From Nitrospirillum viridazoti CBAmc (GTDB lineage: Bacteria > Pseudomonadota > Alphaproteobacteria > Azospirillales > Azospirillaceae): 64,000 bases of DNA. The first letter of the stretch is position 1. Each line of letters starts with the position of its first letter. The stretch spans positions 372,001-436,000 of the forward strand of contig NZ_CP022113.1 in NCBI RefSeq assembly GCF_000730165.1, given 5' to 3'. The position numbers and the translations under genes are program-made. This document shows positions 3,145 to 64,000 of this stretch, one piece after another. A model generated the notes under the pieces. It was not told where the DNA came from. It saw only the letters and a program-made list of their open reading frames with translations, and searched no databases.

Positions 3145-4274
3145 TGGATAACGGCGTTATCGTGCCCCCCGGCGTCCTGGACCTTCCCGCCCTGCTGGCC
3201 CCCATCCCGGGCGACCCGCCCTGCGGGCCGGACCTGCGTGTGCACAACGGCGGCGATGCCGCCTATTTCCAGCTGAAGGATCTGCGCGCCACCGCGCGTG
3301 CCATTGAGCGGCGGGCGGATTCCGAGGATGAGGCCCAGACCTCTCTGGCGGAGTGGCAGCGTATCCAGGACCTGGCGCGCAGCGTCCTGGCCCAGCGCAC
3401 CAAGGACATCGAGGTCGCCGTCTGGCTGACCGAGGCCGCCGTGCGGCTGGAGGGTTTCGCCGGCCTGGCCGATGGCTTCCGCCTGCTGGCCGGCTTGGTG
3501 GAGCAGTATTGGGACGGCGTCCATCCCCAGCCGGACGAGGATGGCATCGCGGTCCGCCTGGCGCCGATCGGCGGCCTTAACGGCCACGGGGCGGAAGGCA
3601 CGCTGATCCAGCCCATCCGCAAGGTGCCGCTGCTGCGCGAGGACCAGCCCATCGCCTACTGGCACTATGCCTTGGCCCAGCGCGCCAGCCAGACGCCGGA
3701 CACGCGCAGCCGCCCGGGCCGCACCCCGCCGCCCACGCTGGACGCCCTGTCCCAGCGCATGAGCCAGGTGCCAGCGGCCCGCAACCGGGCGCTGCTGGCC
3801 GACATCCGCGCCTGCCGCCGGGCCTTCCGCGACCTGGATCGGCTGCTGACCGAACGGGCGGGCGCCGACGCCCCGCCCACCTCCACCATCACCCACATCC
3901 TGGAGGAGGTGGAGGACGCGGTGGTGTTCCTGACCGGCCTGTCGGCCAAGGAAGAGGTGGAGGAGGCCGCCGTGCCCGACGTCATCCTGCATTCCGCCAC
4001 CGGCGCCCCCGTCGTGGACGAGGCTGCGGCGCCCCAGCGGCCGGCCAAGGGCATCACCAGCCGGGAAGAGGCGCTGACCCTGCTGGCGGAGATTGGTCAG
4101 TACTTCCGCCGCACTGAACCCCATTCACCCCTGTCCTACACCATCGAGGACCTGGTCCGGCGCGGCCGCATGCCGCTGCCCGAACTGTTGGCCGAGCTGC
4201 TGGCGGACGCGGGTGCCCGCAACACCCTGCTGACCACCGCCGGCATCCGCCCGGTGCAGGGCAACGGACAGTAA
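3141..4274 (+). CDS. tssA: TssA (ImpA) T6SS cap/baseplate protein
   Basis: A 377-residue protein of the ImpA N-terminal family. The signature region is at the start (LDLPALLAPIPGDPPCGPDLR), followed by the helical segment with YWDGVHPQPDEDG and the APIGGLNG motif. TssA caps the growing sheath or joins it to the baseplate. The C-terminal part holds the HSPLSYTIEDLVRRGRMPLP element found in the short class of TssA. I prefer the ATG at 3141 (or the one at 3144): it overlaps the ppkA stop as ATGA and has GGAAAGG about 5 bases upstream. The longer reading at 3120 would run into the kinase gene. Confidence 0.93.
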   Translation: MMDNGVIVPPGVLDLPALLAPIPGDPPCGPDLRVHNGGDAAYFQLKDLRATARAIERRADSEDEAQTSLAEWQRIQDLARSVLAQRTKDIEVAVWLTEAAVRLEGFAGLADGFRLLAGLVEQYWDGVHPQPDEDGIAVRLAPIGGLNGHGAEGTLIQPIRKVPLLREDQPIAYWHYALAQRASQTPDTRSRPGRTPPPTLDALSQRMSQVPAARNRALLADIRACRRAFRDLDRLLTERAGADAPPTSTITHILEEVEDAVVFLTGLSAKEEVEEAAVPDVILHSATGAPVVDEAAAPQRPAKGITSREEALTLLAEIGQYFRRTEPHSPLSYTIEDLVRRGRMPLPELLAELLADAGARNTLLTTAGIRPVQGNGQ

Positions 4275-4350
4275 GACACTGATGAGAAATCATTTTTATT
4301 TCGGGGCAACCCCTGACGACATGCAGCAACCCATGGGTAGGAGAAGGTAG

Positions 4351-4860
4351 ATGGCCAGCGTTCATGACAAGCTCGAGCGGGTTCGCAAGCCGCGCGTGCA
4401 CATCAAATACGAGGTCGAAACCGATGGGGCGATGGTCGAGAAGGAGCTGCCCTTCGTGGTCGGCGTGCTCGGCGATTTCTCCGGCGACCCGACGGACGAC
4501 CTGAAGCCGCTGAAGGACCGCAAGTTCATCCAGATCGACCGCGACAACTTCAACGAAATCCTGGCGCGCATGAAGCCGTCGCTGTCGTTGCGCGTGCGGA
4601 ACGAGCTGGAAGACGACGGCAGCGAAATGGCCGTGGAGCTGAAGTTCTCCTCGCTGGAGGACATGGAGCCTGGCCAGATCGTTCGCCAGGTGCCGGCGCT
4701 GCGCAAGCTGTTGGAGACGCGCAACCAGCTGCGCGACCTGCTGACCAAGGCCGACCGCTCGACCCAGTTGGAAGACCTGCTGGAATCCATTCTTCAGGAC
4801 GACACTCAGCTGCGCAAGCTGTCGCAGCAGCTGGGCGCCACCGCCGAGGAGGTGAAGTGA
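4351..4860 (+). CDS. tssB: TssB (VipA) contractile sheath small subunit
   Basis: A 169-residue protein. The start ([20 protein letters not shown]), the central [11 protein letters not shown] motif and the [12 protein letters not shown] motif are diagnostic of TssB/VipA. It forms the contractile sheath as a heterodimer with TssC. The gene is preceded by a strong AGGAGAAGG site about 5 bases before the ATG. The 76-base gap after tssA (4275-4350) is the largest gap inside the operon and holds an AT-rich CATTTTTATTT run and a small GGGG-CAA-CCCC hairpin, so a local promoter or processing site is possible. The stop overlaps the tssC start. Confidence 0.97.
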
Positions 4861-6353
4861 TGACCGACACCCTGACCGTTTCCCGCGAAGAAGCCGCGGC
4901 CGGCACCGTCGAAGGCCTCTCGCTGCTGGACCAGGCCATCGGCGCCACCAAGCAGACCGAGCCGGCGCGTGTGCAGGAACTGCTGCGCACCCTGACGGAA
5001 GAGGCGCTGGGCGGCACCGTCACCTACAGCCGCAACCTGACCCAGACGCTGACCGCGGCGGTGAAGGCCATCGACGCCAAGCTGTCCAAGCAGCTGGCCG
5101 CCATCATGCACCACCCGGAATTCCTGAAGCTGGAAGGCAGCTGGCGCGGCCTGCACCACCTGGTCATGAACACCGAGACCAGCGCCAACCTGAAGATCCG
5201 CGTGCTGAACGTGCGCAAGCGCGAACTGGCGAAGGATCTGGCCAAGGCGGTGGAGTTCGACCAGAGTGAGCTGTTCAAGAAGCTCTATGAGAACGAGTTC
5301 GGCACGCCCGGCGGTGAGCCCTACGGCATGCTGATTGGTGACTATGAGTTCACCAACCACCCCGAGGATGTGCAGATGCTGTCCAGCATCTCCAGCATCG
5401 CGGCGGCGGCCTTCGCCCCCTTCATCTCCGCCGCCAGCCCCAAGCTTTTCGGCTTCCAGGATTACCAGGAACTGGCCAAGCCCCGTGACCTGGAGAAGAT
5501 TTTCGAGACGGCGGAATACGCGCAGTGGCGCAGCTTCCGCGACAGCGAGGACAGCCGCTTCACCACGTTGACCCTGCCGCGCGTGCTGGCGCGCCTGCCC
5601 TACGGCGCCGCCACCCTCAGCGTGGATGACTTCAATTTCGAGGAGGCGCCCCTGGACCCCTCGGGCAAGTCGCTGGCGCTGGAGCACAACGAATATTGCT
5701 GGATGAACGCGGCCTACGTCCTGGGCTCGCGCGCCACCGAGGCCTTCGCCAAGTACGGCTGGTGCACGGCCATCCGCGGTGCCGAGGGCGGCGGCAAGGT
5801 GGAAACCCTGCCCACCCACGTCTTCGTCAGCGATGACGGCGACCCCGACCAGAAGTGCCCGACGGAGATCGGCATCACCGACCGTCGCGACGCCGAGCTG
5901 GGCAAGCTGGGCTTCCTGCCGCTCTGCCATTACAAGAACACCGACTATGCCGTGTTCTTCGGCGCCCAGACGGTGCAGAAGCCCAAGAAGTACGACCGTC
6001 CGGACGCCACGGCCAACGCCGCCATCTCCGCCCGCCTGCCGTACATGATGGCCACGTCCCGCTTCGCCCATTACCTGAAGGTGATGGCGCGCGACAAGAT
6101 CGGCTCCTTCCTGGAGGTCGAGGATTGCGAGGCTTGGCTGAACCGCTGGATCAACAATTACGTCAACGCCAACGAGGGCGCCGGCCAGGAAATGAAGGCC
6201 GCCTACCCGCTGCGCGAGGCCAAGATCACGGTGAAGGAAATCCCGGGTAAGCCCGGTTCCTATAACGCCATCGCCTGGTTGCGGCCCTGGTTGCAGATGG
6301 AGGAACTGACGACCTCGCTGCGCATGGTGGCACGGATACCGAGCAAGCTCTGA
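4860..6353 (+). CDS. tssC: TssC (VipB) contractile sheath large subunit
   Basis: A 497-residue TssC/VipB (EvpB family) protein. Visible signatures are [15 protein letters not shown], the [20 protein letters not shown] region with [13 protein letters not shown], the [14 protein letters not shown] segment and the C-terminal [16 protein letters not shown]. It interlocks with TssB to build the sheath whose contraction fires the Hcp tube. The ATG at 4860 overlaps the tssB stop (TGATG); a GTG one codon earlier is an alternative. A second, diverged TssC follows immediately, as in Agrobacterium and Rhizobium loci that carry two TssC genes (TssC40/TssC41, ImpC/ImpD). Confidence 0.97.
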
Positions 6354-50491: not shown

Positions 50492-51673
50492 TCAGCGCTG
50501 CGGCGGATCCGCCGCCGGCCCTGTCGGTTCATTGGGAAGGGGCGGAGCCTCCGCAGGGGTTGTGGGGGCGTTGGTCGGTCCCGGCGCCGCTTCGCGTGCC
50601 ACCGTCGGTTCCGGCCGCTTGGCGGCCGGGGCAGCGCCGGGAGCGGGCTTGGCCGCCTCAGCCCGAGGCGCGGGGGCGCGGCCATGTTCCTCCGCGGCCG
50701 GCTTGGGCGCCTCCTGCGGGCGGCCGTCGTCGCCCGTGTTCAGGATGACGGGCAGGCCGTCGCGGCCGCCGATGATGATGGTCTTGGCGTTGGAGGAATT
50801 GGCCAAAGTGGTGGTCGCCTCGATGCCGCGCAGGCGCAGGTATTCCGGCGTGATGGTGTTGGCCACCGTCGCCTGGAAGTCGCGGATGCCCTCGGCCTCG
50901 ATGCGCTTGCGGTCGCGTTCCTTGGCCTCGCGCGCCAGGCGGAAGTCGTACTCCTGCATGATCTGCTGCTGTTCGGCCTTGCGCTCGATGGCGGCGCGCA
51001 CGCTGTCCGGCAGGGTGACGCTGGAGATCAGGATGTCCTCCACCCGCACCAGGGCCGGGCCGCGGCCGCTGGCCATCTGTTCCTCCAGCGTCAGGGTATC
51101 GGGCGCGGTCTCCCGCGTCGGCAGGGGGAATTCCTCGCGGTCGCGCTTCAGCAGATAGGCCTGAATCTCCGCGCGGTTCAGGGAGTAGAACTCCTCCGGG
51201 CTGTGCTGGGAGACGAATTCGTAGAGCAGCGAGGCGATCTTGGGCCGCACCAGCGTGTCGGCGTAGTCGGGACCCGCCAGCTTGTGCACCAGGCCGGCGG
51301 CGTGGGGGTTGATGCGGAAGCGCACCGACATCTCCACCTCCATGGTCAGGCCATTGGCCGCCACGGCGGGATAGGTGCGCGTCAGGGTCTGCAGCCGGCT
51401 GTCGTAGATGTAGATCTGGTCCCAGGGGGCGATGACGTGCGTCCCTTCCTCCAGCACATGGTCGGTGACGGTCCCGCCGGCGAAGCGGTGCCACAGCACG
51501 CCGACGGATCCGGCGGGCACGGCGACGACCACCGCCGGGGCGAGCGCGAGGGCGGCCAGCAGCAGCAGCAGCGCTGCGGCATAGAGCGACAGGCTGTTGG
51601 CGTCGGCCCAGCGCTTCAGACGCTGACGGAAGGATCGCGGGCCGCTCTTGGCCCCGGGTTCGGCCATGGTCAT
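50492..51673 (-). CDS. SPFH/band-7 (prohibitin-like) membrane protein
   Basis: A 393-residue protein with one N-terminal membrane helix (about residues 28-52). An SPFH/PHB domain follows (VPAGSVGVLWHRFAGGTV, then EGTHVIAPWDQIYIYDSRLQ, VRFRINP and an RPKI motif), then a helical segment rich in Glu/Arg (IERKAEQQQIMQEYDFRLAR) and a Pro/Ala-rich low-complexity tail from about residue 315. Such proteins form oligomeric scaffolds in membrane microdomains and often regulate proteases such as FtsH. The start overlaps the stop of the small membrane-protein gene (ATGA), so the two are coupled. Confidence 0.88.
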   Translation of the reverse strand: MTMAEPGAKSGPRSFRQRLKRWADANSLSLYAAALLLLLAALALAPAVVVAVPAGSVGVLWHRFAGGTVTDHVLEEGTHVIAPWDQIYIYDSRLQTLTRTYPAVAANGLTMEVEMSVRFRINPHAAGLVHKLAGPDYADTLVRPKIASLLYEFVSQHSPEEFYSLNRAEIQAYLLKRDREEFPLPTRETAPDTLTLEEQMASGRGPALVRVEDILISSVTLPDSVRAAIERKAEQQQIMQEYDFRLAREAKERDRKRIEAEGIRDFQATVANTITPEYLRLRGIEATTTLANSSNAKTIIIGGRDGLPVILNTGDDGRPQEAPKPAAEEHGRAPAPRAEAAKPAPGAAPAAKRPEPTVAREAAPGPTNAPTTPAEAPPLPNEPTGPAADPPQR

Positions 51674-51984: not shown

Positions 51985-52596
51985 TCAGGCGGCCGCCGCA
52001 GCCGCCTGCGCCGACTTTCCACGCACCTCGTTGAACTTCTCCTTGAAGAAGTCCGTGACCTTGGCCGGGTCGAAGGTGAGGAAGGTGCCGCCGGAGGCGA
52101 AGTGCTGCGCGAACACCTTGCCCAGGGCGTAGGTGAAGGCCGCGTTGAAGGCCGGCTGGGTCAGCAGGCCCAGGACCGGGCCAACCAGCGGGATGGCCTT
52201 CAGCGTGTGGCGGAACGCGAAGGAGCCCAGCAGGCTGCCGCCCAGCGTTGCCGGGGCGACGGTGGCCAGCAGGGTGCCGATGGCGGCCTTGCCGATGTCG
52301 CCGCGGAAATCCACGCCGTAGTGCTTGGCCAATTCGCGCAGCAGGTTCAGCTGCACGCCGGCCAGCACCGCGTCATCCAGCAGCACGACCGGGATGACGG
52401 CTGAGCCGGCCGCCAGCAGGAGGTGGGTGCGGATGATATGGCGGACGGCGACCTCATCCGCCACGGCCACGGCCGCGTGGGTCGTGTCGGAGGCGACCGC
52501 GTCGACCGGGGCTTCCGTGGTGGTGGCCGTGGGGGACACGGCCTCGGGGCCGGCCGCCGCGGCCTCTTCTGGGGTTAGTTCTTTCTTCGTGACCAT
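51985..52596 (-). CDS. DUF697-family membrane protein
   Basis: A 203-residue protein. After an Ala/Thr-rich N-terminal 50 residues comes the DUF697 signature (IIRTHLLLAAGSAVIPVVLLDD, then LNLLRELAKHYGVDF) and two Gly/Ala-rich membrane segments with GKAAIGTLLATVAPATLGG. The C-terminal tail is amphipathic (KVTDFFKEKFNEVRG). DUF697 domains occur alone or fused to GTPases (YcjF-like); function is unknown. I chose the ATG at 52596, which has GGAG about 12 bases upstream on the - strand. A longer frame to 52662 has no supporting site. Confidence 0.8.
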   Translation of the reverse strand: MVTKKELTPEEAAAAGPEAVSPTATTTEAPVDAVASDTTHAAVAVADEVAVRHIIRTHLLLAAGSAVIPVVLLDDAVLAGVQLNLLRELAKHYGVDFRGDIGKAAIGTLLATVAPATLGGSLLGSFAFRHTLKAIPLVGPVLGLLTQPAFNAAFTYALGKVFAQHFASGGTFLTFDPAKVTDFFKEKFNEVRGKSAQAAAAAA

Positions 52597-52635
52597 GATC
52601 TCACGCTCCAAAGAAGACGTTGAGGGGGGACCGGT

Positions 52636-52726
52636 CCGGACCACGGGTCCGGCTTGTTCCATCCCGGGAGGGACGGCCCGATGTGACTGGCCGCCGGCAA
52701 GGGCCGGCAGCCCGACGATATGGGCT
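52636..52726 (-). terminator. Hairpin cluster after the NRPS operon
   Basis: The 144-base gap between the thioesterase stop and the DUF697 gene holds three stems: AGCCC/GGGCT (52709-52726), GCCGGC-AAGG-GCCGGC (52693-52708) and CCGGACC-ACG-GGTCCGG (52636-52652). They lie just downstream of the last gene of the - strand NRPS operon and probably end its transcript, although none is followed by a T run in that direction. Confidence 0.45.
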
Positions 52727-52740
52727 AACCAATAACGGGC

Positions 52741-53508
52741 TCATGACGGCGGTTCCCCGGTTGAGGAAGCCGCCAATGCGTTCTTTAAAAATAGACTGTG
52801 AATAAGGCGGACGTAATCGTCGGGATTTTCCTGAATGAAAAAATGACCTCCTTTCATCGTTTGTAGTTGGAAGCCGCGGGCCCTGACCGTTTCCCAGGCC
52901 GCCACCTCTTCCACCGTGACGGTCGTGTCGGCATCGCCGGCCAGGGCCAGAAGCTCCAGGGGCAAGGGTGCGGGGGTAGCCACCCGATAGCTGTCGGACA
53001 AAGTGAAGTCCGCGCGCAGCAGGGGGCGCATCAGGTCCATCAGGTCCCGGTTCTCCAGCACCTCGGGCGGTGTGCCGCCCAGGCGCCGCAGTTCCTGATC
53101 CAGGCCGGCGTCGTCCAACTCCCAAACCGGGGAGCGGTTGGGGGGCAGGTGGGGCGCCCGGCGCCCGGAAACCACTAGGCCCAGGGGCGGCCGTCCGACG
53201 CGCACCAGCGCCTCGGCCACCGCGTGGGCGATGGCGGCCCCCAGGGAATGGCCGGCCAGGACCAGGGGCCGCCGGGGCAGGGCCTTCAGCGCCGCCACGA
53301 TGGGCGGCACCACCTGGTCCATGCGGGTGGCGGCCGGTTCCTGCCAGCGGCCGGGCCGGCCGGGCAGCAGCACGCCCCAGACGTCCAGGCCCGGCGGCAC
53401 GCCCTTGGCCAGAAAATTCAGCGCGTTCAAGCCGCCGCCGCCATAGGGGAAGGCGACGATGGTACCAATAGGGTTCGTGCCCCGGATCAGGGGGTGCAGC
53501 CAACTCAT
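52741..53508 (-). CDS. Type II thioesterase for NRPS editing
   Basis: A 255-residue alpha/beta hydrolase of the GrsT/TEII family. The start has FPYGGGG, the nucleophile motif is GHSLG (Ser88), the acid is Asp194 in AGDADTTV and the base is His222 in KGGHFFI. Stand-alone TEII proteins remove wrong acyl groups or stalled intermediates from NRPS carrier domains. The neighbouring NRPS ends in a reductase and has no internal thioesterase, so this enzyme is more likely a proofreader than the release enzyme. The start overlaps the preceding ABC transporter stop (ATGA); it is the last gene of the operon. Confidence 0.9.
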   Translation of the reverse strand: MSWLHPLIRGTNPIGTIVAFPYGGGGLNALNFLAKGVPPGLDVWGVLLPGRPGRWQEPAATRMDQVVPPIVAALKALPRRPLVLAGHSLGAAIAHAVAEALVRVGRPPLGLVVSGRRAPHLPPNRSPVWELDDAGLDQELRRLGGTPPEVLENRDLMDLMRPLLRADFTLSDSYRVATPAPLPLELLALAGDADTTVTVEEVAAWETVRARGFQLQTMKGGHFFIQENPDDYVRLIHSLFLKNALAASSTGEPPS

Positions 53509-55217
53509 GCCTGGGCCTCCGTCGGTTCGGCCGGGCCGGGTTCAAGCGGCAGGGGATGCACCAGGCGCAGGCGCCCTTCGGACATTTGATAGACGCGGTC
53601 GGCCAGGTCGAACCAGCGCTCGTCATGGGTGACGCAGATGACCACCTTGCCCTGCGCCTTCAATTCCGGCAGCAGCTGCTCGTAAAAGACCGCGCGGAAG
53701 TGGGGGTCCTGGTCGGCCGCCCATTCGTCCAGCACGATGACCGGCTTGTCCTCCAGTTGCGCCAGCACCAGGGCCAGGCGTTTGCGCTGCCCGGTGGACA
53801 GACGGACGGTGGTGAAGGCGCCGTCGGCCACGGCCACCTTGTCCTGCATCTCCAGCCGGGTCAGCAACCCCTGCACCCGCGCCGGATCCGGCGACGCCAC
53901 GCCGTAGAGCCGGCGCGACAGGTGATAGTCGGAGAAGATGGCCGAGATCTGGTCACGGTAGTCCTGCAAAGCCGCTGCCGGCACGGGCGCGCCATTGACC
54001 AGCAGCGTGCCGTGGTCCAGCGGCATGAGGCCGGTCAGCAGGCGCAGCATGGTGGATTTGCCGGAACCGTTGCCGCCGGTGATGAAGGTGACCTCCCCAC
54101 CCCGGAACTCCGCCGTCAGCGGCCCCACGGCGAAGCTGGGCGTGCCGTCATCGTTGCGATAGGCGAAGCCGGCCTCGGCCAGGGCGATGGACCGGGGGGC
54201 GGGCAGCGTCGCCACGCCATCGGCCGGTCTCTCCTCGATGGGCGCGCGACCGGCCGGTACGGGGGCGTCGGCGGTGACGGCCCAGCGGCCAGCGGCCTCG
54301 GCCAGACGCCGCTCCATGTCCTCGATATTGCTCAAGGCCCGTTCGGCCATGGACACCATGGGCGTCACGAAGGACACGGTGCTGATGGGCCCGACGATGA
54401 ACAGGGCGGCCGTCGTCACCGGCACCACCACCTTGTAGTATTCCGCCGACACCAGGGGGACGACGAAGACCATCAGGCCGATCAGGGCATAGAACATGGC
54501 CTCAATCAGGGAGAAGTTGCGCACCCACTGGGTCTTGGTCTCGACATTCACCCGCCGTGCGCGGGATGACGCCGCCCCCACCGCCCCCACCAGGGCGTCG
54601 GCCCGGCGGCGGCTCATGCGGGCCTCCTTGAAGCCCTGGGTCAGGTCGGTCAGCCCGTCGAAGACGTCGGCCTCCGCTTGGCCGGATTCCGCCAGCATTT
54701 CCTTGAACGAGCGGGTGCGGCGATAGCGGATGGAGACCGCCAGGCCAGCGAAGGCGAAGGCCAGCACGCAGGCCAGGGGCGAGAGATAGGCCAGGTAATA
54801 GGCCAGGAAAACCAGCATCACCGCCTGCTGCGCGCCCACCGCCAGGATGGGCAGCACGCGGGCCAGGATCTGGGTATCCTGGATCAGCACGCCGTGCAGG
54901 GCGGCGCGGCCGATGCGCTCCACCGTCACCAGGTCGGCCCGCCGCACCGCGTCGAACACCCGCATGCGGAAGGTGTGGATCAGCCGTTCGGCATCCCGCG
55001 ACGCCGTCACCAGGATGGCGTTGTGCGATACGCAGAACAGGGTGATGGTCACCGCGTACATCAACACCAGGCGGGCGTCGACCTTGTCCGCTTCCTGGCT
55101 GGCCGCCGCCACCAGGCCCAGCAGGGCGGTGGTGGCGATGGCCGATACCAGGTTCATGAAGGTCAGCATCTTCAGGTTCTGCGGGATCTCCCGCAGGACG
55201 ACCTTGGCCAGTCTCAT
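53505..55217 (-). CDS. Cyclic-peptide export ABC transporter 2 (PvdE/SyrD-like)
   Basis: A 570-residue half-transporter with six N-terminal membrane helices (within residues 1-285) and a C-terminal ATPase domain. Walker A is GGNGSGKST (381-389), the signature is LSTGQRKRLAL and Walker B is VIVLDEWAADQDPHF. The DEWAADQDP form is characteristic of the PvdE/SyrD cyclic-peptide exporter family, which moves siderophore precursors or lipopeptides to the periplasm. I chose the ATG at 55217, which overlaps the stop of the first transporter gene (ATGA); a longer frame to 55421 runs into that gene. It is a diverged paralogue of the upstream transporter and the two may work as a heterodimer. Confidence 0.9.
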   Translation of the reverse strand: MRLAKVVLREIPQNLKMLTFMNLVSAIATTALLGLVAAASQEADKVDARLVLMYAVTITLFCVSHNAILVTASRDAERLIHTFRMRVFDAVRRADLVTVERIGRAALHGVLIQDTQILARVLPILAVGAQQAVMLVFLAYYLAYLSPLACVLAFAFAGLAVSIRYRRTRSFKEMLAESGQAEADVFDGLTDLTQGFKEARMSRRRADALVGAVGAASSRARRVNVETKTQWVRNFSLIEAMFYALIGLMVFVVPLVSAEYYKVVVPVTTAALFIVGPISTVSFVTPMVSMAERALSNIEDMERRLAEAAGRWAVTADAPVPAGRAPIEERPADGVATLPAPRSIALAEAGFAYRNDDGTPSFAVGPLTAEFRGGEVTFITGGNGSGKSTMLRLLTGLMPLDHGTLLVNGAPVPAAALQDYRDQISAIFSDYHLSRRLYGVASPDPARVQGLLTRLEMQDKVAVADGAFTTVRLSTGQRKRLALVLAQLEDKPVIVLDEWAADQDPHFRAVFYEQLLPELKAQGKVVICVTHDERWFDLADRVYQMSEGRLRLVHPLPLEPGPAEPTEAQA

Positions 55218-56878
55218 GCCGGCACCTCCCGCCCATGCCAGGCGGTATCCAGCGGCACCTCGCGCAGGCGTCCCTCCTCCATGTGCAGGCGCCGGTCGGC
55301 TACGTCGAAATACTGGTCGTCGTGGGTGACGGCGATCAGGGTCAGGCCCCGGTCCTTCAGGGCCGGCACCACCTCGCGATAGAATTTCTGACGGAAGTGC
55401 GGGTCCTGGTCGGCCGCCCATTCGTCCAGGATCAGCACGGGCTTATGCTCCAGCAGCGCCGCCACCAGGCCCAGGCGCTTGCGTTGTCCGGCGGACAGGT
55501 CGCGGCGGGCGAAACGGTCGCCGTCCACCCGCGTCACGCGCTGCATCTCCATCCAGCGCACCAGTTCATCGACCTCGGCCGTGTCCAGCGCCGGCACGCC
55601 GTAGAGGCGCGCGAACAGGTGGAAGTCGGCGAAGACGGTGGCCATCTGCTCGCGATAGGGGTCCAGCCGCTGGGGCCCGATGGCCAGGTCGTCCACCATC
55701 AGGCGGCCGCGCATGGGCTGGTACAGGCCAGTCAGCAGCTTGATGAAGGTGGACTTGCCGGAGCCGTTGCCGCCGGTGATGAACACCACCTCGCCCCGCC
55801 GCAGGGTAAGATCGAAAGGTCCGACGGCGAAGGCCGGTTCACCCGCTGGGGCCGGGAAGGTGAACTCCACCCCATCCAGGCGGATCTCGCGGAAATCCGC
55901 CGGCAGGTCCAGGGGGGGCGCGTCCTGCCCCGGTTCGGCCAGGGCCGCCAGATCCTTTTCCAGGTCCAGCATGCGGCCGGCCGCACCATCGGCCGCGGTC
56001 ATGACCGCCAAGGATTGCATCAGGCCGAAGATGGGCGTGGACAGGAAGATCACCGCCGCCGCGACCTTCACCATCTGCTGCGAAAAGCTGCTGGAATAGT
56101 GGGGCAGCACGAAGACCAGGATGCCCAGCATCAGGTTGAAGACCATCTCCCCGAAGATGAACTGCTGCCAGGTGTGCATGTGCACCCGGCCGCGCTGCGC
56201 CATGGTGCGGTCTGAGGTGGTGACGAAAATGGTGTTGAGGTCGTCGCTACGGGCGCTGCTCAAACGCTGTTCCTTGAAGCCGTCGAACAGGTCCGACACG
56301 CTTTCGAACAGCGCCTCCTCCTCCGCCATCAGCAGGACCTGCTGTTCCTCCAACGCCCTGCTCAGCCGGACATAGAACCAGGCCCCGCCCACCAGCACGG
56401 CGGAGATGACGAAGAAGGCCAGCGGCGACAGCACCGCCATGTAGACCAGCACCGCGACGACCGACAGGACGGAGCGCAGGGTGATGGCCATGAACTCGGA
56501 GTTCTGCGAGATCAACTGCCCCGCCTGGGTCACGCTTTCGAACAGGCGGGCCTGGCCGAACCGCTCCAGCTTCAGCAGGTCGGACCGGCGCACCTGGTCC
56601 ACCAGGCGCATGCGCACCGTGTCGACCACCTCTTCCAGATAGGCGGCCATCTGGGTGACCATCCAGCCTTCCGTCGCCATGTAGGCGGCAAGGCTGGCCA
56701 GGAAGGCACCGGCCAGGACGAAGTTGACGCCTGCGCGCTGCTGCTCCGCGATTTCGGAGGCGGCGGCGTTGACGATGACCAGGATCAGGGTGCTGGACAA
56801 CGCCGATCCCGCCGCCGCCAACAACAGGCGCCGGATGCGGGCGGGACCGATAAGCTTGATCAGGCGGAGAAGGTTCAC
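55214..56878 (-). CDS. Cyclic-peptide export ABC transporter 1 (PvdE/SyrD-like)
   Basis: A 554-residue half-transporter. The membrane domain (residues about 1-290) is followed by an ATPase domain with Walker A GGNGSGKST (369-377), signature LSAGQ (461-465) and Walker B LILDEWAAD (482-490). The D-loop region DQDPHF is shared with the next transporter. It starts with GTG at 56878, overlapping the oxygenase stop (GTGA), and ends overlapping the second transporter (ATGA). Two adjacent half-transporters of the same family suggest a heterodimeric exporter for the NRPS product. Confidence 0.9.
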   Translation of the reverse strand: MNLLRLIKLIGPARIRRLLLAAAGSALSSTLILVIVNAAASEIAEQQRAGVNFVLAGAFLASLAAYMATEGWMVTQMAAYLEEVVDTVRMRLVDQVRRSDLLKLERFGQARLFESVTQAGQLISQNSEFMAITLRSVLSVVAVLVYMAVLSPLAFFVISAVLVGGAWFYVRLSRALEEQQVLLMAEEEALFESVSDLFDGFKEQRLSSARSDDLNTIFVTTSDRTMAQRGRVHMHTWQQFIFGEMVFNLMLGILVFVLPHYSSSFSQQMVKVAAAVIFLSTPIFGLMQSLAVMTAADGAAGRMLDLEKDLAALAEPGQDAPPLDLPADFREIRLDGVEFTFPAPAGEPAFAVGPFDLTLRRGEVVFITGGNGSGKSTFIKLLTGLYQPMRGRLMVDDLAIGPQRLDPYREQMATVFADFHLFARLYGVPALDTAEVDELVRWMEMQRVTRVDGDRFARRDLSAGQRKRLGLVAALLEHKPVLILDEWAADQDPHFRQKFYREVVPALKDRGLTLIAVTHDDQYFDVADRRLHMEEGRLREVPLDTAWHGREVPA

Positions 56879-57876
56879 GCGGCCCGTCCTACTTTGGGGG
56901 CGTCCGCGCCGCCATAGGCGGACAGCGGCACGTCATCGTCGACGCGGATGCGCCAGACGTGGCGCTCATGATCCTCGAACGCAGTTCGGCCGTGCAAGGC
57001 CATGTGGTTGTTGACGAAATGGATGCTGTCCGCCGGCATGGAGATCTGCAGCAGGGCCTCGGGCCGCCGCGCCTCCGTCAGCAGCAGGTCCAGCGCCCGG
57101 CGCACGTCCGGTGTGTCGGCGGCGGGGTGCAGGGCCAGTCCCTTCATCAGCGTGTCGGCGCGGAAGCGGATGCCGGGCCGTTCGGCGAAGATGGTGGCGA
57201 AGGTCACCTCCACCGTGTCCGTGCCGCCGTTGGCGGTGAAAACGCCGGGAATGCGGAACGGCAGCACCTTGCGCGACAGCAGGTCAATGGCCCAGCGCCC
57301 CTCCTCTGTCGCGGACAGCGATCGCTTCAGGCATTGCAGGTCGCGCACCAGGGAGATGCCGCCGCCGCAGGCCGCCGGGCGGATGTAGTACAGCATCATG
57401 TATCGCTCCGGCCGGGCGAAGTACTGCGTATCGGTGTGCAGATCGGCCTCGTCGGCATGCTCGGAGAAGGTGGTGGCTGCCTTCTGCTGTCGCACCTTAA
57501 CGTCCCAGATGACGCGGCGGTTCACCTGGTCCGTGGCCGTCGGCCGGCCCATGCAGGCGGCCAGCGCGAACAGCACCTGGGCCCGCTCCTCCAGCTCCAG
57601 GTGCGCCAAGCCGGCCTGGCGCACGGCGATGCCGCTGTAGTCGGTCTCCAGGATGTGGCACAGCGCCTCGGCCGTGGCGGCCAGGGTGGGGCTGGCCACG
57701 GTGAGGGCGGCGCGCAGCTCCACGGGTGTGGTGGGCGGCACCAGCCGCTCGATCCGGATGTCCGGGCCGTAAAATTCCCGTAATGCCGCCTGCACGCACA
57801 GGCGTTCCCGCTCGGGCACGGGCGACAGGGCGAAGTCGCCGATGCGGAGGCCTAGGTCTTCAAGATGGGTCAACAT
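56875..57876 (-). CDS. TauD/TfdA-family 2-oxoglutarate Fe(II) oxygenase
   Basis: A 333-residue non-haem iron dioxygenase. The iron-binding triad is visible as His147-x-Asp149 (DLHTDTQY) and His295 (HMALHGRTAFED), with an arginine for 2-oxoglutarate in HVWRIRV (Arg309 or Arg311). The layout (an N-terminal helical region, then the HTD motif with TQYF, and FVNNHMALHGR) resembles the clavaminate-synthase-like group that includes AsnO and VioC, which hydroxylate the beta carbon of free or carrier-bound amino acids for NRPS pathways. It lies directly downstream of the NRPS (49-base gap) and overlaps the first exporter gene, so it probably hydroxylates the NRPS substrate or product. The exact substrate cannot be read. 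Confidence 0.87.
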   Translation of the reverse strand: MLTHLEDLGLRIGDFALSPVPERERLCVQAALREFYGPDIRIERLVPPTTPVELRAALTVASPTLAATAEALCHILETDYSGIAVRQAGLAHLELEERAQVLFALAACMGRPTATDQVNRRVIWDVKVRQQKAATTFSEHADEADLHTDTQYFARPERYMMLYYIRPAACGGGISLVRDLQCLKRSLSATEEGRWAIDLLSRKVLPFRIPGVFTANGGTDTVEVTFATIFAERPGIRFRADTLMKGLALHPAADTPDVRRALDLLLTEARRPEALLQISMPADSIHFVNNHMALHGRTAFEDHERHVWRIRVDDDVPLSAYGGADAPKVGRAA

Positions 57877-57925
57877 GGCTCGTCACCGTCTTGGAAACAG
57901 GAGGGGCTGAGGGTTCGGAGAATGG

Positions 57926-60900
57926 TCAGTAGGCGTCACGGGCGGCCTCCATCATCGCGGCCAGCCCGTCGGCGGGCAGCCCGTCCGGCCAGCGGAAGCC
58001 CAAACGGGCCAGCAAGGCCTGGGTCTTGGCCGTCGCCAACTCGGTGCGGCGGTCCCGCTCGTGCGGCGATTCCTGGCGATAGACGCCGAAGGTGGGCAGC
58101 AGCTCGGCCAGCGGTTTTTCCATCGCCGGGTCGTTCAGGGCGGTCTCGATCCGCTCCAGCAATTGGCTGTAGCTGCCGGTGTCCAGATGGCTGGCCATGC
58201 CGGGGGCCGCCCGCATGACCTGGGCCAGGAAATCGCGGCGGGCGTGGTCGACGTGATGGGTGTGGTGGGCCAGATCCGGCGCCTGCGCCAGGGTCACCAC
58301 CGCCTCCGCCACCTTGTCGACATGGCACAGCCAGGCGTGCATGTCCTCGGGCACGAAGCGCAGGCGGGTCAGCGCCGCCGTCAGGCGAAAGAAGGCGTTT
58401 TGCCGGATGTTGCGCTGAAGTGCGCCACCTTCCGCCGCGAAGACGACATTGCCCACGCGATGGATGCTGGCGTTGGCGATCTCGCCCCGCGCCGCCACCA
58501 CCAGATGCTCCGCTTCCTGCTTGCTGCGGACGTAGTAGTTGTCGTCCAACGCCGCGTGGTGTTCGTCATATTCGGTGTACAGGCGGTAGCCATCGTCGGG
58601 CGACCGGCCGCACACCGACAGGGTGGAGATGAAGTGCATGTCGGCCGTGCGGCCCGTGCGCCGGCCCCGCTCAACCGCCAGGTCCAGCAGGTGGCGGGTG
58701 GCCTGGACGTTGTCGGCGTGGCTGTCGCGGTAGTGGCCGTAGTGGTTCACATTGGCCGCGCAGTGCAGGATGGCGTCGGTCTCGACGGCCAAGGCGTCGT
58801 GCCGGCCTTCGGCCAGGCCTAGATCGGGTACGCGCAGGTTGCCGGCCCAGGCCTGGACGCGACCGGACGCCAGCAGGTCCATTGCCGCGTTGTCGCCGAA
58901 ATAATGGCGCAGCACCTCGGAAAGCCGCCCTTGCGCCTCCGCGTCGTCGCGGCCGCGGACCAGGGCGGTGACGCGCCGTGCCGGGTCCAACGCCAGGTGG
59001 CGTAGCAGGTAGGCGCCGAGATAACCGGTGGCCCCCGTCAGCAGGACATTGCCATAGGGGCGGGTCGTCGCCGGGGGCGAGGCCGCCAGGGGCTCATAAC
59101 GCTGGCGATAGGCGGCCAGCAGGGGCTCCAACGTGGTTTCGCGTGCCGCCTCGAACGCGGCCTCGCGGGCCTTGAAGGCCTGCCAGTGCGCGCGGGCGCC
59201 GGCGATCAGGCCGGTCAGCTGGCCCGCCTGCGGACGGCAGCTTCGGGCGAAGTCCTCCAGCCGGGGGTTCTCATACAGGTCATTGACCGTGCACGCGAAT
59301 TCCCGGCGCACGCGGTTGACCATGGCCGTGGCGCGCAGGCTGTCGCCGCCCAGCTGGAAGAAGTCATCCTCGCGTCGCAGGCCACCCACCTTCAGCACGG
59401 CGGACCAGATGGCGGCCACGCGTTCTTCCACCGGTCCCTGGGGCGGGGTGCCGGCGCGGTGATCGCCATCCGTGGACTGCCGCAGGCGATAGTCGTCGAT
59501 GCGGGCGCGCAGGCTTGCCTGGTCGACCTTTCCGGCCAGGGTGGTGGGGATGCTTTCCACCGGAATGACGGCGGCCGGCAGCATGTAGCTGGGCAGGCGC
59601 TGGGCCAGGGTCTCGCGCCAGGCGGCGTTGTCCGGCAGGTTGGTGCCGGTGGCGAAGGCGTAGAGCGCCTGGTTGCCGGCGGCATCCTTGTGCACCAGTA
59701 CCACGGCCTGGCGCACGCCCGGCTGCGCCTCGATAGCGGCGGCGATCTCGCCCAGTTCCACCCTCTGGCCGCGCAGCTTCACCTGGCCATCGGTGCGGCC
59801 CAGCACCAGCAACTCGCCCCCGGCCGTCCAGCGGCCCAGATCGCCGGTGCGATAGCGCCGTCCGTCAGGCGGGGTTGGGAAGGCGCGCTTGGTCAGGTCG
59901 GGCCGGTTGAGATAACCCTGGGCCAGGCTGGCGCCGGCCACCCAGATCTCGCCGATGGCGCCGGGGGGTACCTGGCGGCCCTGGGCGTCCAGGATCATGA
60001 CGCGGACGTTGGGCAGGGGCCGGCCGGCCGTCAGGCGTGGCGCGCCCGGGTCTATGCGGCCGATGGTGGTGGCCGCCGTGTTTTCCGTGGGGCCGTAGCC
60101 GTTGTAGCAGGCCAGGCGGCCGGCATAGTGGCGGGCGTCGGCGGCGATGGGTGCCTCCCCCACCGTCATCAGGATGCGCAGGGGCGGCAGCTCTAACCGC
60201 TCGAACAGGCGCAGGTAGGACGGCGCCATGGTGGCGACGGTGATGCCCCGGCCGGCGATCAGGCCCGGCATGCCGGCGATGTCGTCCATCTCGGCCCGGG
60301 TCAGGGGGGACAGGGCGGCGCCCGTCCTCCAGGCCATCACGACATCCGAGATCCACAGGTCGAAGGTGGGGGACGATAGCGTCAAGACGCGGTCCGCCGG
60401 CGTGATGCCGAAGCGCTCGCCCATGCCCACCGCCAGGTTCATCAGGCCGGCATGGGTGACGACCACGCCCTTGGGCGTGCCGGTGGAGCCGGAAGTGTAG
60501 AGGATGTAGGCGGGATCGGCGCCGACGTCCTCAGGCAGATCCTCGTCCGCCAGGGAGACATCCCGCACTTCCTCCGGCCGCAGCAGGGGCAGGCCCAGGG
60601 CAGCCAGGGCGTCGGGCGGGGTATGGCCGTCCAGCGCCAGGATCATCTGTGCGCCGGCATCCTGGGCGATGAAGGCCAGCCGGTCGCCTGGCAGGTCGCT
60701 GGTCAGCGGCACATAAGCGCCGCCGGCCCGCCAGACGGCCAGCACGGCGGCGGGCAGGGCGGGGGAGCGGTCGGTCAGGACGCCCACGACCTGGCCCCGG
60801 CGCAGGCCCCGCAGGCGCAGGGCGGCCGCCAGGACGCCGATCCCGGCATCCACCTCGGCATAGGTGCGCACGCCGGCGGCGGTGATGAGGGCGGGCGCCT

Positions 60901-63900
60901 CAGGCTGGGCCCGGGCCAGATCCTGGAACAGGCGGTCGAAGCGGGACGCGGGCGAAGCCAATTCGGGCCCGTGCTCCCACCGTGCCAGCTGGGCGGCCTC
61001 ATCGGGCAGCAGGGTGGGCAGGGGCTGGTCGGCGACCCCTTGCGCCACGTGGCGGGCCAGAGCCGCCAGCGACAGCGCCCAGCTCTCCACCGTTTCGCGC
61101 TCATAAAGTGCCGCGTCCACCAACCATTGCAGCACGAGGCGGCCGTCTGCCAGGGCCTCGTGCGTCAGGGCCATGTCGTGCGCGGCGGCCAAGGGGCTTA
61201 GGCGATAGGTGGGGCGTTCGGGGATGGCGATGGTGGCCGTCGTGAGCGCCCAGTCCGCATCCCCGCCGTTGCCAACCGCCATGGGCGTCTCGCTGACCAG
61301 GAGGTTGTACAGCGGGTAGCGCCCTGGCTGGACCAGGTCGGGGTACTGGCCACGGAAGTCCCCCAGGATGCGGGCGGTGGGGTAGCGGGAGTGGCCGAGC
61401 CCGTCGGCCAGCGACTGCTGCACCCCGGCCAGAACCTCGGCCAGCGTGTCGCCCTCCGCCAGATGGCAGGCCAGGGGCAGCATGTTCAGGTAATACCCCA
61501 CCACCCGGGCCTCATCCGCCGTCTCGCGGGTGGAGGCGGCGGTGCCCAGGGTGAAGTGGGCCCGGCCGGTGCGTCGCCGCACCTCGATGGCCATCAGGGC
61601 CAGCATCAGGGCGTGCAGGCTGGCGCCCTGGCCCTGGGCGATGCGGCGCAGGGCAGCGGTGGTGTCGGCGTCCAGGCACAGGCGCAGGCTGTGGCTGCCC
61701 TTCGCGGCCTGACTGCTGCGGCCCAGCGGGCGCGGCGCATCCAGCGGCCATTCGTCGAAGGGTCCGTTGCCCTCCGGCGCCGGGCTGGCCACCAGATGGT
61801 CCAGCGTATCGCGCCAATAGGCGGCGTCGGCATCGGCGGCCGGGCTGGCCAGGTAGGCCTCCTCCCGCGCCGCCGTCAGGGCCAGGCCGCCCGGAAGCGC
61901 CTCCAGCGCCTGTCCCTTCAGCAGGGCGGTCAGATCCTCGATCAGCACGGCCAGGGACAGGCCGTCGCCCACGGCGTGGTGCAGGCCCAGCCAGAACACG
62001 GCGGTGTCCGACGTTCGCACCAGGCCCGCCCGCCACAGCGGGGGCTGGCCGAGCGGAATGGCCGTGGCGGCATGGCCGCGCGCCTGGGCCAGCGCCGCGT
62101 CGGCATCGGCCGCCGTCTCGATCAGGAAGTGGCGATTGACCAGCGCCCCGGCGGCAGCGGCGTCCAGCACCGGACGCCGCAGAACGCCCTCGCCGGCCTC
62201 CTCGAAGTGGCAGCGCAGGGCGTCATGGCGCTGGACCAGGCCGGTCCAGGCCCGGCGCCAGGCGGCATCATCCGGCACGGCGCCCGTGACCGTCAGGGCC
62301 AGCGCCATGGTGAAGGCGCGTGTGTCCAGCCCGGCACCCTCCGCCACCCAGAACTCGCGTTGGCCTTCGGTGGCGCGGTCGCTGCCACTGCCCACCACCA
62401 CCGTTTCGCCCTGGCCCAACTGGGCCACGCGGCGGGCGAAGCCGCGCAGGGTGGGGTCGCTGAACAGTTCGCGCGCCGGCACCGGATGGCCGAACGCCTT
62501 CTCCAACTGGTGCGACACGGCGATGGCCAGCAGGCTATGCCCACCCAGGCGGAAGAAATCGTCCTCCCGACCCACGGCGCCGCAACCCAGCACATCCCGC
62601 CACGCCGCTGCGATGCGCTCTTCAACCGGCCCCTGGGGCGGGGTGGTGGCACGCTGACCGCCGTCCTGCCGCAGTCGGTACTCATCGATGCGGGCACGCA
62701 GGCTGGCCTGGTCGACCTTTCCGGCCAGGGTGGTGGGGATGCTTTCCACCGGGATGACGGCGGCCGGCAGCATATAGCTGGGCAGGCGCTGGGCCAGCGC
62801 CTCGCGCCAGGCGGTGTTGTCCGGCAGGTTGGCGCCGGTGGCGAAGGCGTAGAGCGCCTGGTTGCCGGCGGGATCCTTGTGCACCAACACCACGGCCTGG
62901 CACACGCCCGGCTGCGCCTCGATAGCGGCGGCGATCTCGCCCAGTTCCACCCTCTGGCCGCGCAGCTTCACCTGGCCGTCGGTACGGCCCAGCACCAGCA
63001 ACTCGCCCCCGGCCGTCCAGCGGCCCAGATCGCCGGTGCGATAGCGCCGTCCGTCAGGCGGGGTTGGGAAGGCACGTTTGGTCAGGTCGGCGCGGTTCAG
63101 GTAGCCCTGGGCCAGGCTGTCGCCGGCCACCCAGATTTCGCCGATGGCGCCAGGGGGAACTTGGCGCCCCTGGGCGTCCAGGATCATGACGCGGATGTTG
63201 GGCAGGGGCCGGCCGGCCGTCAAACGTGGCGCGTCCGGGTCTATGCGGCCGATGGTGGTGGCCGCCGTGTTTTCCGTGGGGCCGTAGCCGTTGTAGCAGG
63301 CCAGGCGGCCGGCATAGTGGCGGGCGTCGGCGGCGATGGGCGCCTCCCCCACCGTCATCAGGATGCGCAAGGGCGGCAGGTCCGCCCGCTCGAACAGGCG
63401 CAGGTAAGAGGGCGCCATGGTGGCGACGGTGATGCCCCGGCCGGCGATCAAGGCCGGCATCGCCGCGATGTCGTCCATCTCGGCCCGGATCAAGGGGGAC
63501 AGGGCGGCGCCCGCCCCCCAGGCCATCACGACATCCGAGACCCACAGGTCGAAGGTGGGGGAGGCCAGGGTCAGCACGCGGTCCGCCGGCGTGATCCCGA
63601 ACCGCTCGCCCATGCCCACCGCCAGGTTCATCAGGCCGGCATGGGTGATGACCACGCCCTTGGGCGTGCCGGTGGAGCCGGAGGTGTAGAGGATGTAGGC
63701 GGGATCGGCGCCGACATCCTGGGGCAGGTCCTCGTCCGCCAGGGAGACATCCCGCACTTCCTCCGGCCGCAGCAGGGGCAGGCCCAGGGCAGCCAGGGCG
63801 TCGGGCGGGGTATGGCCGTCCAGCGCCAGGATCATCTGCGCGCCGGCATCCTGGGCGATGAAGGCCAGCCGGTCGCCCGGCAGGTCGCTGGTCAGCGGCA

Positions 63901-64000
63901 CATAAGCGCCGCCGGCCCGCCAGACGGCCAGCACGGCGGCGGGCAGGGCGGGGGAGCGGTCGGTCAGGACGCCCACGACCTGGCCCCGGCGCAGGCCCCG
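57926..64000 (-). CDS. Nonribosomal peptide synthetase with terminal reductase, partial
   Basis: The frame is open through the right window edge, so the N-terminal part is missing; more than 2020 residues are visible. Order in the protein: adenylation A1 (partial, to about 62705), carrier PCP1 (serine of GGHSL at 62534-62536), condensation C2 (HHAVGDG at 61961-61981, intact), adenylation A2 (about 60970-59515), PCP2 (serine of GGDSL at 59339-59341), then a thioester reductase (GATGYLG near 59020, YVRSK near 58535). A domains have YTSGSTGTPKG, NGYGPTEN and GKVDQASL. Reading the specificity positions against GrsA gives D-L-S-T-M-V-G-A-A-K for both, a code I cannot match. NAD(P)H-dependent release would yield an aldehyde or alcohol. 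It heads the operon with the oxygenase, exporters and type II thioesterase. Confidence 0.94.
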   Translation of the reverse strand, partial: RGLRRGQVVGVLTDRSPALPAAVLAVWRAGGAYVPLTSDLPGDRLAFIAQDAGAQMILALDGHTPPDALAALGLPLLRPEEVRDVSLADEDLPQDVGADPAYILYTSGSTGTPKGVVITHAGLMNLAVGMGERFGITPADRVLTLASPTFDLWVSDVVMAWGAGAALSPLIRAEMDDIAAMPALIAGRGITVATMAPSYLRLFERADLPPLRILMTVGEAPIAADARHYAGRLACYNGYGPTENTAATTIGRIDPDAPRLTAGRPLPNIRVMILDAQGRQVPPGAIGEIWVAGDSLAQGYLNRADLTKRAFPTPPDGRRYRTGDLGRWTAGGELLVLGRTDGQVKLRGQRVELGEIAAAIEAQPGVCQAVVLVHKDPAGNQALYAFATGANLPDNTAWREALAQRLPSYMLPAAVIPVESIPTTLAGKVDQASLRARIDEYRLRQDGGQRATTPPQGPVEERIAAAWRDVLGCGAVGREDDFFRLGGHSLLAIAVSHQLEKAFGHPVPARELFSDPTLRGFARRVAQLGQGETVVVGSGSDRATEGQREFWVAEGAGLDTRAFTMALALTVTGAVPDDAAWRRAWTGLVQRHDALRCHFEEAGEGVLRRPVLDAAAAGALVNRHFLIETAADADAALAQARGHAATAIPLGQPPLWRAGLVRTSDTAVFWLGLHHAVGDGLSLAVLIEDLTALLKGQALEALPGGLALTAAREEAYLASPAADADAAYWRDTLDHLVASPAPEGNGPFDEWPLDAPRPLGRSSQAAKGSHSLRLCLDADTTAALRRIAQGQGASLHALMLALMAIEVRRRTGRAHFTLGTAASTRETADEARVVGYYLNMLPLACHLAEGDTLAEVLAGVQQSLADGLGHSRYPTARILGDFRGQYPDLVQPGRYPLYNLLVSETPMAVGNGGDADWALTTATIAIPERPTYRLSPLAAAHDMALTHEALADGRLVLQWLVDAALYERETVESWALSLAALARHVAQGVADQPLPTLLPDEAAQLARWEHGPELASPASRFDRLFQDLARAQPEAPALITAAGVRTYAEVDAGIGVLAAALRLRGLRRGQVVGVLTDRSPALPAAVLAVWRAGGAYVPLTSDLPGDRLAFIAQDAGAQMILALDGHTPPDALAALGLPLLRPEEVRDVSLADEDLPEDVGADPAYILYTSGSTGTPKGVVVTHAGLMNLAVGMGERFGITPADRVLTLSSPTFDLWISDVVMAWRTGAALSPLTRAEMDDIAGMPGLIAGRGITVATMAPSYLRLFERLELPPLRILMTVGEAPIAADARHYAGRLACYNGYGPTENTAATTIGRIDPGAPRLTAGRPLPNVRVMILDAQGRQVPPGAIGEIWVAGASLAQGYLNRPDLTKRAFPTPPDGRRYRTGDLGRWTAGGELLVLGRTDGQVKLRGQRVELGEIAAAIEAQPGVRQAVVLVHKDAAGNQALYAFATGTNLPDNAAWRETLAQRLPSYMLPAAVIPVESIPTTLAGKVDQASLRARIDDYRLRQSTDGDHRAGTPPQGPVEERVAAIWSAVLKVGGLRREDDFFQLGGDSLRATAMVNRVRREFACTVNDLYENPRLEDFARSCRPQAGQLTGLIAGARAHWQAFKAREAAFEAARETTLEPLLAAYRQRYEPLAASPPATTRPYGNVLLTGATGYLGAYLLRHLALDPARRVTALVRGRDDAEAQGRLSEVLRHYFGDNAAMDLLASGRVQAWAGNLRVPDLGLAEGRHDALAVETDAILHCAANVNHYGHYRDSHADNVQATRHLLDLAVERGRRTGRTADMHFISTLSVCGRSPDDGYRLYTEYDEHHAALDDNYYVRSKQEAEHLVVAARGEIANASIHRVGNVVFAAEGGALQRNIRQNAFFRLTAALTRLRFVPEDMHAWLCHVDKVAEAVVTLAQAPDLAHHTHHVDHARRDFLAQVMRAAPGMASHLDTGSYSQLLERIETALNDPAMEKPLAELLPTFGVYRQESPHERDRRTELATAKTQALLARLGFRWPDGLPADGLAAMMEAARDAY
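59515..60811 (-). repeat. Adenylation-domain duplication, copy in module 2
   Basis: About 1.3 kb covering most of A2 is nearly identical at DNA level to 62704-64000 (A1) at a constant offset of 3189 bases (1063 codons, one module). The similarity continues to the window edge and probably beyond. The carrier domains and the regions after them are clearly different, so only the adenylation part has been duplicated or homogenised recently. Confidence 0.9.
62704..64000 (-). repeat. Adenylation-domain duplication, copy in module 1
   Basis: The partner of 59515-60811, at an offset of 3189 bases. Differences are few and mostly silent or conservative, for example near the residue pairs DPD/DPG and RAD/RPD. 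The specificity-determining positions are the same in both copies. Confidence 0.9.

Follow-up and report, generated by a model that had tools for sequence, protein, structure and literature searches.

A tandemly repeated carrier-condensation-adenylation unit and its probable origin by duplication in a reductase-terminated nonribosomal peptide synthetase of Nitrospirillum viridazoti CBAmc

A stretch of 64,000 nucleotides from Nitrospirillum viridazoti CBAmc (contig NZ_CP022113.1; G000:C4:372001-436000; hereafter the window) ends inside a gene for a nonribosomal peptide synthetase (NRPS). The window keeps the last 2,024 codons of this gene and the rest lies beyond the window edge. The gene was therefore read from the whole genome (7.38 Mb, 4 contigs), where it occupies G000:C4:429926-445762 on the minus strand and encodes 5278 amino acids (aa). 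A complete unit of a carrier (T), a condensation (C) and an adenylation (A) domain is repeated in tandem in this gene. It is probable that the last internal unit, T3-C4-A4, of a reductase-terminated synthetase was duplicated in tandem, which took the enzyme from four to five modules, and that the copies were later mostly homogenised.

The AMP-binding, PP-binding and Condensation domains of the protein all score above the Pfam cut-offs, as expected of an NRPS. The domain order is A-T-C-A-T-C-A-T-C-A-T-C-A-T-TD, which corresponds to five modules, one A-T and four C-A-T, followed by a terminal reductase (TD). The core motifs are intact, with HHxxxDG in all four C domains and GGxS in all five T domains, and an NAD(P)-binding thioester reductase stands at the C-terminus in the place of a thioesterase. 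AusA (aureusimine) and MxcG (myxochelin) both end in a reductase, and the best NCBIfam profiles for the enzyme are of this reductase-terminated kind: NF047350 (AusA) with 777 bits and NF038078 (MxcG) with 663 bits. The likeness lies in the terminal NAD-binding reductase, and the curated cut-offs of 2500 and 2300 bits place the enzyme outside both families. The A domains are named A1 to A5 along the whole gene; in an earlier model-made reading of the window alone (the first-pass annotation), A4, cut at the window edge, and A5 were called A1 and A2.

When offsets of 1000-5999 were scanned over window positions 54001-64000, the only long diagonal was found at 3189 bases. At this offset, 50-base windows are 0.86-1.00 identical from about 59500 to the window edge. 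A4 and A5 share 95.1% of 1,233 aligned bases, and the nine other A-A pairs share 55.5-63.2%, so the identity of A4 and A5 is far above normal A-domain homology. The first-pass annotation had noticed this near-identity at an offset of one module, and that observation holds. It had also stated that the carrier and flanking regions differ, which is true of what the window contains but not of the gene. T3 and T4 are identical at 96.7% of 213 bases and C4 and C5 at 91.4% of 1,314 bases; T4 and the terminal T5 share 61.4%, and every A-A and T-T pair besides A4-A5 and T3-T4 falls at 55.5-68.7%. The second T-C-A copy lies wholly inside the window and most of the first copy lies beyond its edge, so only T4 and T5 were visible and the carriers seemed different, which is an edge effect. 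Copying or conversion of an A domain alone between otherwise distinct modules, which the annotation had favoured, would agree with the difference between T4 and T5. It is very improbable, because T3-T4 and C4-C5 match as closely as A4-A5 over most of their length and the boundaries of the repeated unit lie in A-T linkers rather than at the edges of the A domains. Identity over whole modules, that is, a plain module duplication, was the outcome that the annotation had named beforehand as speaking against its proposal, and the identity does cover the whole T-C-A unit.

The two copies comprise aa 2643-3707 and 3708-4772, exactly 1,065 aa each, with the next boundary at aa 4773. The longest diagonals in the gene pair aa 2633-3095 with 3698-4160 (95.8%) and aa 3150-3704 with 4213-4767 (93.8%). 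PPQGPVEER in the A-T linker opens both copies and recurs at the boundary at aa 4773. The DNA identity between the copies begins sharply at CCGCCCCAGGG and ends just as sharply past the occurrence of this sequence in the A5-T5 linker, which there has 12 bases in common with the A3-T3 linker. In phylogenetic trees, A4 and A5 fall in the terminal-A clade of the family and C4 and C5 in its terminal-C clade. Tandem near-identical modules within one gene, one of the features expected of module duplication under concerted evolution, are present. Between the copies, 202 aligned nucleotides differ: 26 before, 93 within and 83 after a divergent stretch in the C domain that is described below. Assembly errors classically arise at near-identical tandem repeats, and a related assembly, that of N. 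amazonense BR 12005 (G002), breaks in the same region. A module duplicated by the assembler is nevertheless extremely improbable here: such an artefact would give identical copies, without the 202 differences and the divergent stretch, and the genome is assembled in 4 contigs.

The likeliest origin of the duplication is an unequal exchange in a four-module ancestor, in which the A3-T3 and A4-T4 linkers recombined at the short repeat that codes for PPQGP. The new A4-T4 junction would then be a copy of the terminal A domain fused to a copy of T3. Recombination within NRPS genes at conserved motifs has been described by Baunach et al. 2021 (PMC8097286) and recombination of NRPS genes also in PMC9205934, as far as the available parts of these papers go. 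The part of PMC8097286 available to us also reports a tendency for the native Asub-T (A-T) interface to be kept. In contrast, the junction described here lies in the A-T linker, so the A4-T4 pairing is non-ancestral.

The homologues of the enzyme agree with a four-module ancestry. Ten were taken up, which are not all that exist, and six further Azospirillum plasmid records were listed besides. Similar codes in the same order are found in Azospirillum brasilense Sp7 (L126), G029, Telmatospirillum siberiense (L033) and Rhizomicrobium electricum (L035). The others come from an alphaproteobacterial metagenome-assembled genome (MAG; L034), a Chlorobiaceae MAG (L036), a Geobacter MAG (L041) and the genomes G010, G026 and G002. 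Five of the ten have four modules in complete open reading frames (ORFs), namely two of Azospirillum type (G029, L126) and those of Telmatospirillum (L033), Rhizomicrobium (L035) and the Chlorobiaceae MAG (L036), and four of the ten are fragmentary (G002, G010, L034, L041). The closest comparison is with A. brasilense Sp7 (WP_059399527.1, plasmid NZ_CP012916.1), which has the same domain order, the same neighbouring genes and closely similar codes module by module (ILRLLAMGTK, DAWFLGAILK, DVSDVGAITK, DASTMVGAAK). It differs in having four modules and in the code of its terminal A domain, with Ala instead of Leu at position 236. No product is known to us for this four-module cluster, and none of the literature matches listed for Azospirillum, Nitrospirillum and Telmatospirillum is a publication on it. 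The enzyme is a relative by descent of the Azospirillum-type family, with which its code order and gene neighbourhood agree, but it is not a four-module one; it has five modules, the extra one being the T-C-A duplicate before the terminal T. Relatives of A5 at E <= 1e-80 were found in 2 of 385 genomes of the class, one of which is the genome itself and the other of which has 42% identity; the scan took no more than four candidates from each genome and did not list G002, G026, G029 or G010 among its matches, so rarity is indicated only roughly.

Other lines of the family also vary in their modules. The homologue in G026 (L114) is complete, with four A domains and an extra C-T pair that lacks an A domain. 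Its two adjacent C domains, whose motifs lie at aa 1814 and 2362, group as sisters (0.913 support), and this line seems to have expanded independently. In G010, two contigs (L118, L119) each carry an A2-type domain (DAWFIGAIIK and DAWFVGGIAK), sisters at 0.989; these possibly represent a duplicated module 2, though they are on separate contigs.

Specificity codes were extracted with a script that reads DVWHFSLVDK, which we take to be the known serine code, from E. coli EntF. A4 and A5 both read DLSTMVGAAK, as had been stated in the first-pass annotation. No match to this code or its close variants was found in text searches of the literature available, and its earlier description as unmatched to a known amino acid agrees with this. 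Candidate Tyr-type and Arg-type codes were likewise not found in the literature searched, and no substrate was assigned. The terminal code is DLSTMVGAAK, DASTMVGAAK, DSSTMVGAAK, DLSSMVGAAK or DLSTMVGAGK in all ten homologues taken up and follows the pattern D[LAS]S[TS]MVGA[AG]K across phyla. The specificity is thus old and conserved, a family trait and not a local oddity. Since two consecutive modules have the identical code, A4 and A5 probably load the same residue, which would be incorporated twice in a row; the proposal that consecutive modules use the same building block is supported to this extent. A1, at aa 185 of the synthetase (L010), lies outside the window. It has no aspartate at position 235, and I-[LM]-R was read at positions 235, 236 and 239 in all nine family A1 domains examined, this one among them. 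An A domain without Asp235 points to a substrate without a free alpha-amino group, and the code of A1 suggests a starter of this kind rather than an ordinary alpha-amino acid. A2 is Leu-like by code, the sole code reading with a paper behind it: the available part of PMC12283262 names DAWFLGNVVK as one of the most frequent codes in the Leu/Ile/Val group.

From the domain order and the codes, a course of synthesis can be proposed, the loading, extension and release steps following what is generally known of NRPSs. T1 would carry the starter, T2 a Leu-like residue and T3 another residue, and modules 4 and 5 would add the same residue, one each. The reductase would release the chain, presumably as an aldehyde, which may cyclise, and export by the two ATP-binding cassette (ABC) transporters encoded beside the synthetase is likely.

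The exception to the near-identity of the copies is one stretch of the C domain (aa 3077-3161 of C4 and 4142-4224 of C5), in which 47 of 83 aligned residues and 93 of 249 bases differ. The repeat before it has 26 differing bases in 434 codons and the repeat after it 83 in 546 codons. The stretch starts just before the R-PLFD motif, presumably motif C7 of the C domain, and stops shortly before the Pfam condensation domain ends. Among the relatives that have the cluster, N. amazonense BR 12005 (G002), of the same genus, is the nearest, and its terminal C domain matches the C5 stretch at 82 of 83 residues. Since only 1 of 83 residues has changed while fourfold sites differ at 11 of 52, the C5 stretch is under purifying selection. 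A search of 59 genomes (the own included) for the C5-type stretch gave a 99% match in G002 alone, and the genome ranking after it reached 47%. A compensated frameshift was considered as the origin of the stretch and rejected: the aligned DNA is identical at 169 of 243 bases, which reflects real substitutions, and the single residue change between C5 and G002 beside the 11/52 fourfold changes also contradicts it. The stretch was also compared with the terminal C domains of the family. Of 42 positions conserved in at least seven of nine other terminal C domains, C4 keeps 31, C5 24 and G002 24. The mean identity to these nine domains within the stretch is 48.9% for C4 and 40.0% for C5, and just before the stretch it is 54.3% and 54.2%, respectively. 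As C4 retains more of the conserved positions, its version is the family-like one and that of C5 is derived.

Two histories, a homogenisation of the copies that spared the stretch and an import of the stretch from elsewhere, both fit these observations. After the stretch, fourfold sites differ between the copies at 29 of 349 and between either copy and the G002 orthologue at 55/339 and 53/339; the copies thus resemble each other more closely than the two species do. The stretch breaks this rule, since C4 and C5 differ at 47 of 83 residues and C5 and G002 at one. The paralogues within the genome are thus closer to each other than to the orthologue, which either order of the duplication and the split from G002 may give. 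We lean modestly towards a duplication that predates the split, with the copies kept alike save in the divergent stretch. This history needs no donor, and it would explain why both species have the derived version in their terminal module.

It is probable that most of the unit was kept alike by later recombination between the copies, with the 83-residue stretch staying different, and the uneven divergence along the repeat supports some such recombination. Fourfold differences between the copies number 10/285 before the stretch and 29/349 after it (Fisher p 0.013). With the stretch excluded from the run tests, the longest identical run between the copies is 159 codons, a length reached in 0 of 20,000 shuffles. 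Additionally, the ratio of differences between the copies to differences between the species is 10:42 at aa 3162-3321 and 42:54 at aa 3362-3561 (p 0.0037), for segments picked post hoc with the 40-codon window starting at aa 3322 and the windows from aa 3562 left out. Gene conversion after the duplication is thereby suggested, though not proven; of the earlier proposal of gene conversion this later form may stand, and conversion of the A domain by itself does not.

Several results weigh against this history. Codons that differ between the copies after the stretch match G002 by the first or the second copy in a ratio of 33:36, with no significant clustering (1,512/20,000 shuffles), as a plain recent duplication would give. 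The run test on fourfold sites alone is weak, the longest identical run of 110 sites being reached in 348 of 20,000 shuffles. Furthermore, the gene of G002, which is split over two contigs that both end inside the repeat and lacks its middle, may have four modules or five; from the matches the gap would be 857 bp with four modules or 4,052 bp with five, and a separate A4 contig was searched for in G002 and not found. It is possible, though we consider it doubtful, that the duplication instead followed the split, without homogenisation, and that C4 alone then acquired some 250 bp of foreign sequence derived from a related C domain. The silent divergence between the copies, which is below that between the species, the even 33:36 division and the presence of the C5-type stretch in the terminal C domain of G002 would all agree with this. 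On the other hand, no donor of the C4 stretch was found in seven genomes (the own included) or in the plasmid collection, the best match outside the gene being 57% (G026). The C4 stretch also resembles a vertical relic in its family-conserved positions, and the even silent divergence expected of a single recent event is not seen.

The gene belongs to an already described kind of module duplication. In polyketide synthase and NRPS lines, module duplication with concerted evolution and escape through functional divergence has been described by Medema et al. 2014 (PMC4256081). The model in Figure 4 of that paper, in the part available to us, resembles the present case in that duplicated modules are kept alike by internal recombination while parts escape. 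In the present case, the differing part is one 83-residue stretch within a C domain, and the case for homogenisation is built on a single gene and a single, partial orthologue. The junction in the A-T linker and the limitation of the divergence to part of one C domain are less usual.

The coordinates of the synthetase domains and the neighbouring genes are collected in Table 1. In A. brasilense Sp7 the neighbours are, in order, a TauD-type dioxygenase, two ABC transporters, an alpha/beta hydrolase, a DUF697 protein, a short protein and a prohibitin-family protein. Two proteins in which only helix-turn-helix domains were matched (L010:11553-14015) look like insertion sequence transposases; they are encoded outside the window, on the upstream side of the synthetase. 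A second NRPS region with several A domains is present in the same genome (G000:C3:1045239-1064748). Elsewhere in the window, positions 18886-48423 (+) hold one ORF of 9,845 aa, which is built of repeated LxNSGxI-type units and has a C-terminal autotransporter beta-domain (PF03797, E 9.1e-45, last 500 aa), as in a very large autotransporter.

Table 1. Features of the synthetase gene and its neighbours, in window positions.
Feature	Position	Strand	Remarks
3' part of the five-module NRPS gene	57926..64000	-	runs past window end
A4, code DLSTMVGAAK	62717..64000	-	continues beyond window; boundary from the 3189 offset; closes first T-C-A copy, unit end 62642
Second T-C-A copy (T4-C5-A5), aa 3708-4772	59447..62641	-	
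T4 carrier, GGHS	62426..62620	-	PF00550; near-identical to T3, which is outside the window
C5 condensation domain, HHAVGDG	61040..62371	-	PF00668
Divergent stretch of C5, aa 4142-4224	61091..61339	-	47/83 residues unlike C4, 1/83 unlike the terminal C domain of G002
A5 adenylation domain, code DLSTMVGAAK	59528..60928	-	PF00501 + PF13193
Terminal carrier T5, GGDS	59237..59437	-	outside the repeat; boundaries approximate
Terminal thioester reductase (TD), TGATGYLG	58301..59041	-	PF07993, E 7.2e-39
TauD/TfdA-type dioxygenase	56875..57876	-	PF02668; same neighbour in A. brasilense Sp7
ABC exporter 1, cyclic-peptide-export-like	55214..56878	-	TIGR01194, 285.5 bits, just below the 286.2 cut-off
ABC exporter 2	53505..55214	-	TIGR01194, above cut-off
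Type II thioesterase-like protein	52741..53508	-	PF00975
DUF697 protein	51985-52662	-	behind the cluster; order shared with A. brasilense Sp7
Band_7/prohibitin-like protein	50492-51673	-	behind the cluster; order shared with A. brasilense Sp7

C domains are regarded as secondary gatekeepers with the acceptor site as the main filter, according to the part of PMC11546977 available to us. A more speculative reading, which we consider rather unlikely, is that the 83-residue stretch is a donor-side selectivity element, the duplication being old, the two modules being kept interchangeable by recombination, the C4 version ancestral and the C5 version derived and under purifying selection in both species. 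If this were true, the stretch would be what has to be different in a module acting on the older chain and in one acting on a chain that already ends in the new residue, and nature would have mapped a donor-side selectivity element of a C domain at sub-domain resolution.

Module duplication is a recognised way for assembly lines to lengthen their products, and engineers can take guidance from a clear case in which the relatives have four modules and the junction can be read. The 12-bp linker repeat yields a non-ancestral A4-T4 pairing that is presumably functional, and the lone divergent stretch between otherwise interchangeable modules offers a direct test of selection by C domains. The conserved, unmatched terminal code of the family hints at a building block still to be assigned, used by soil- and plant-associated bacteria.

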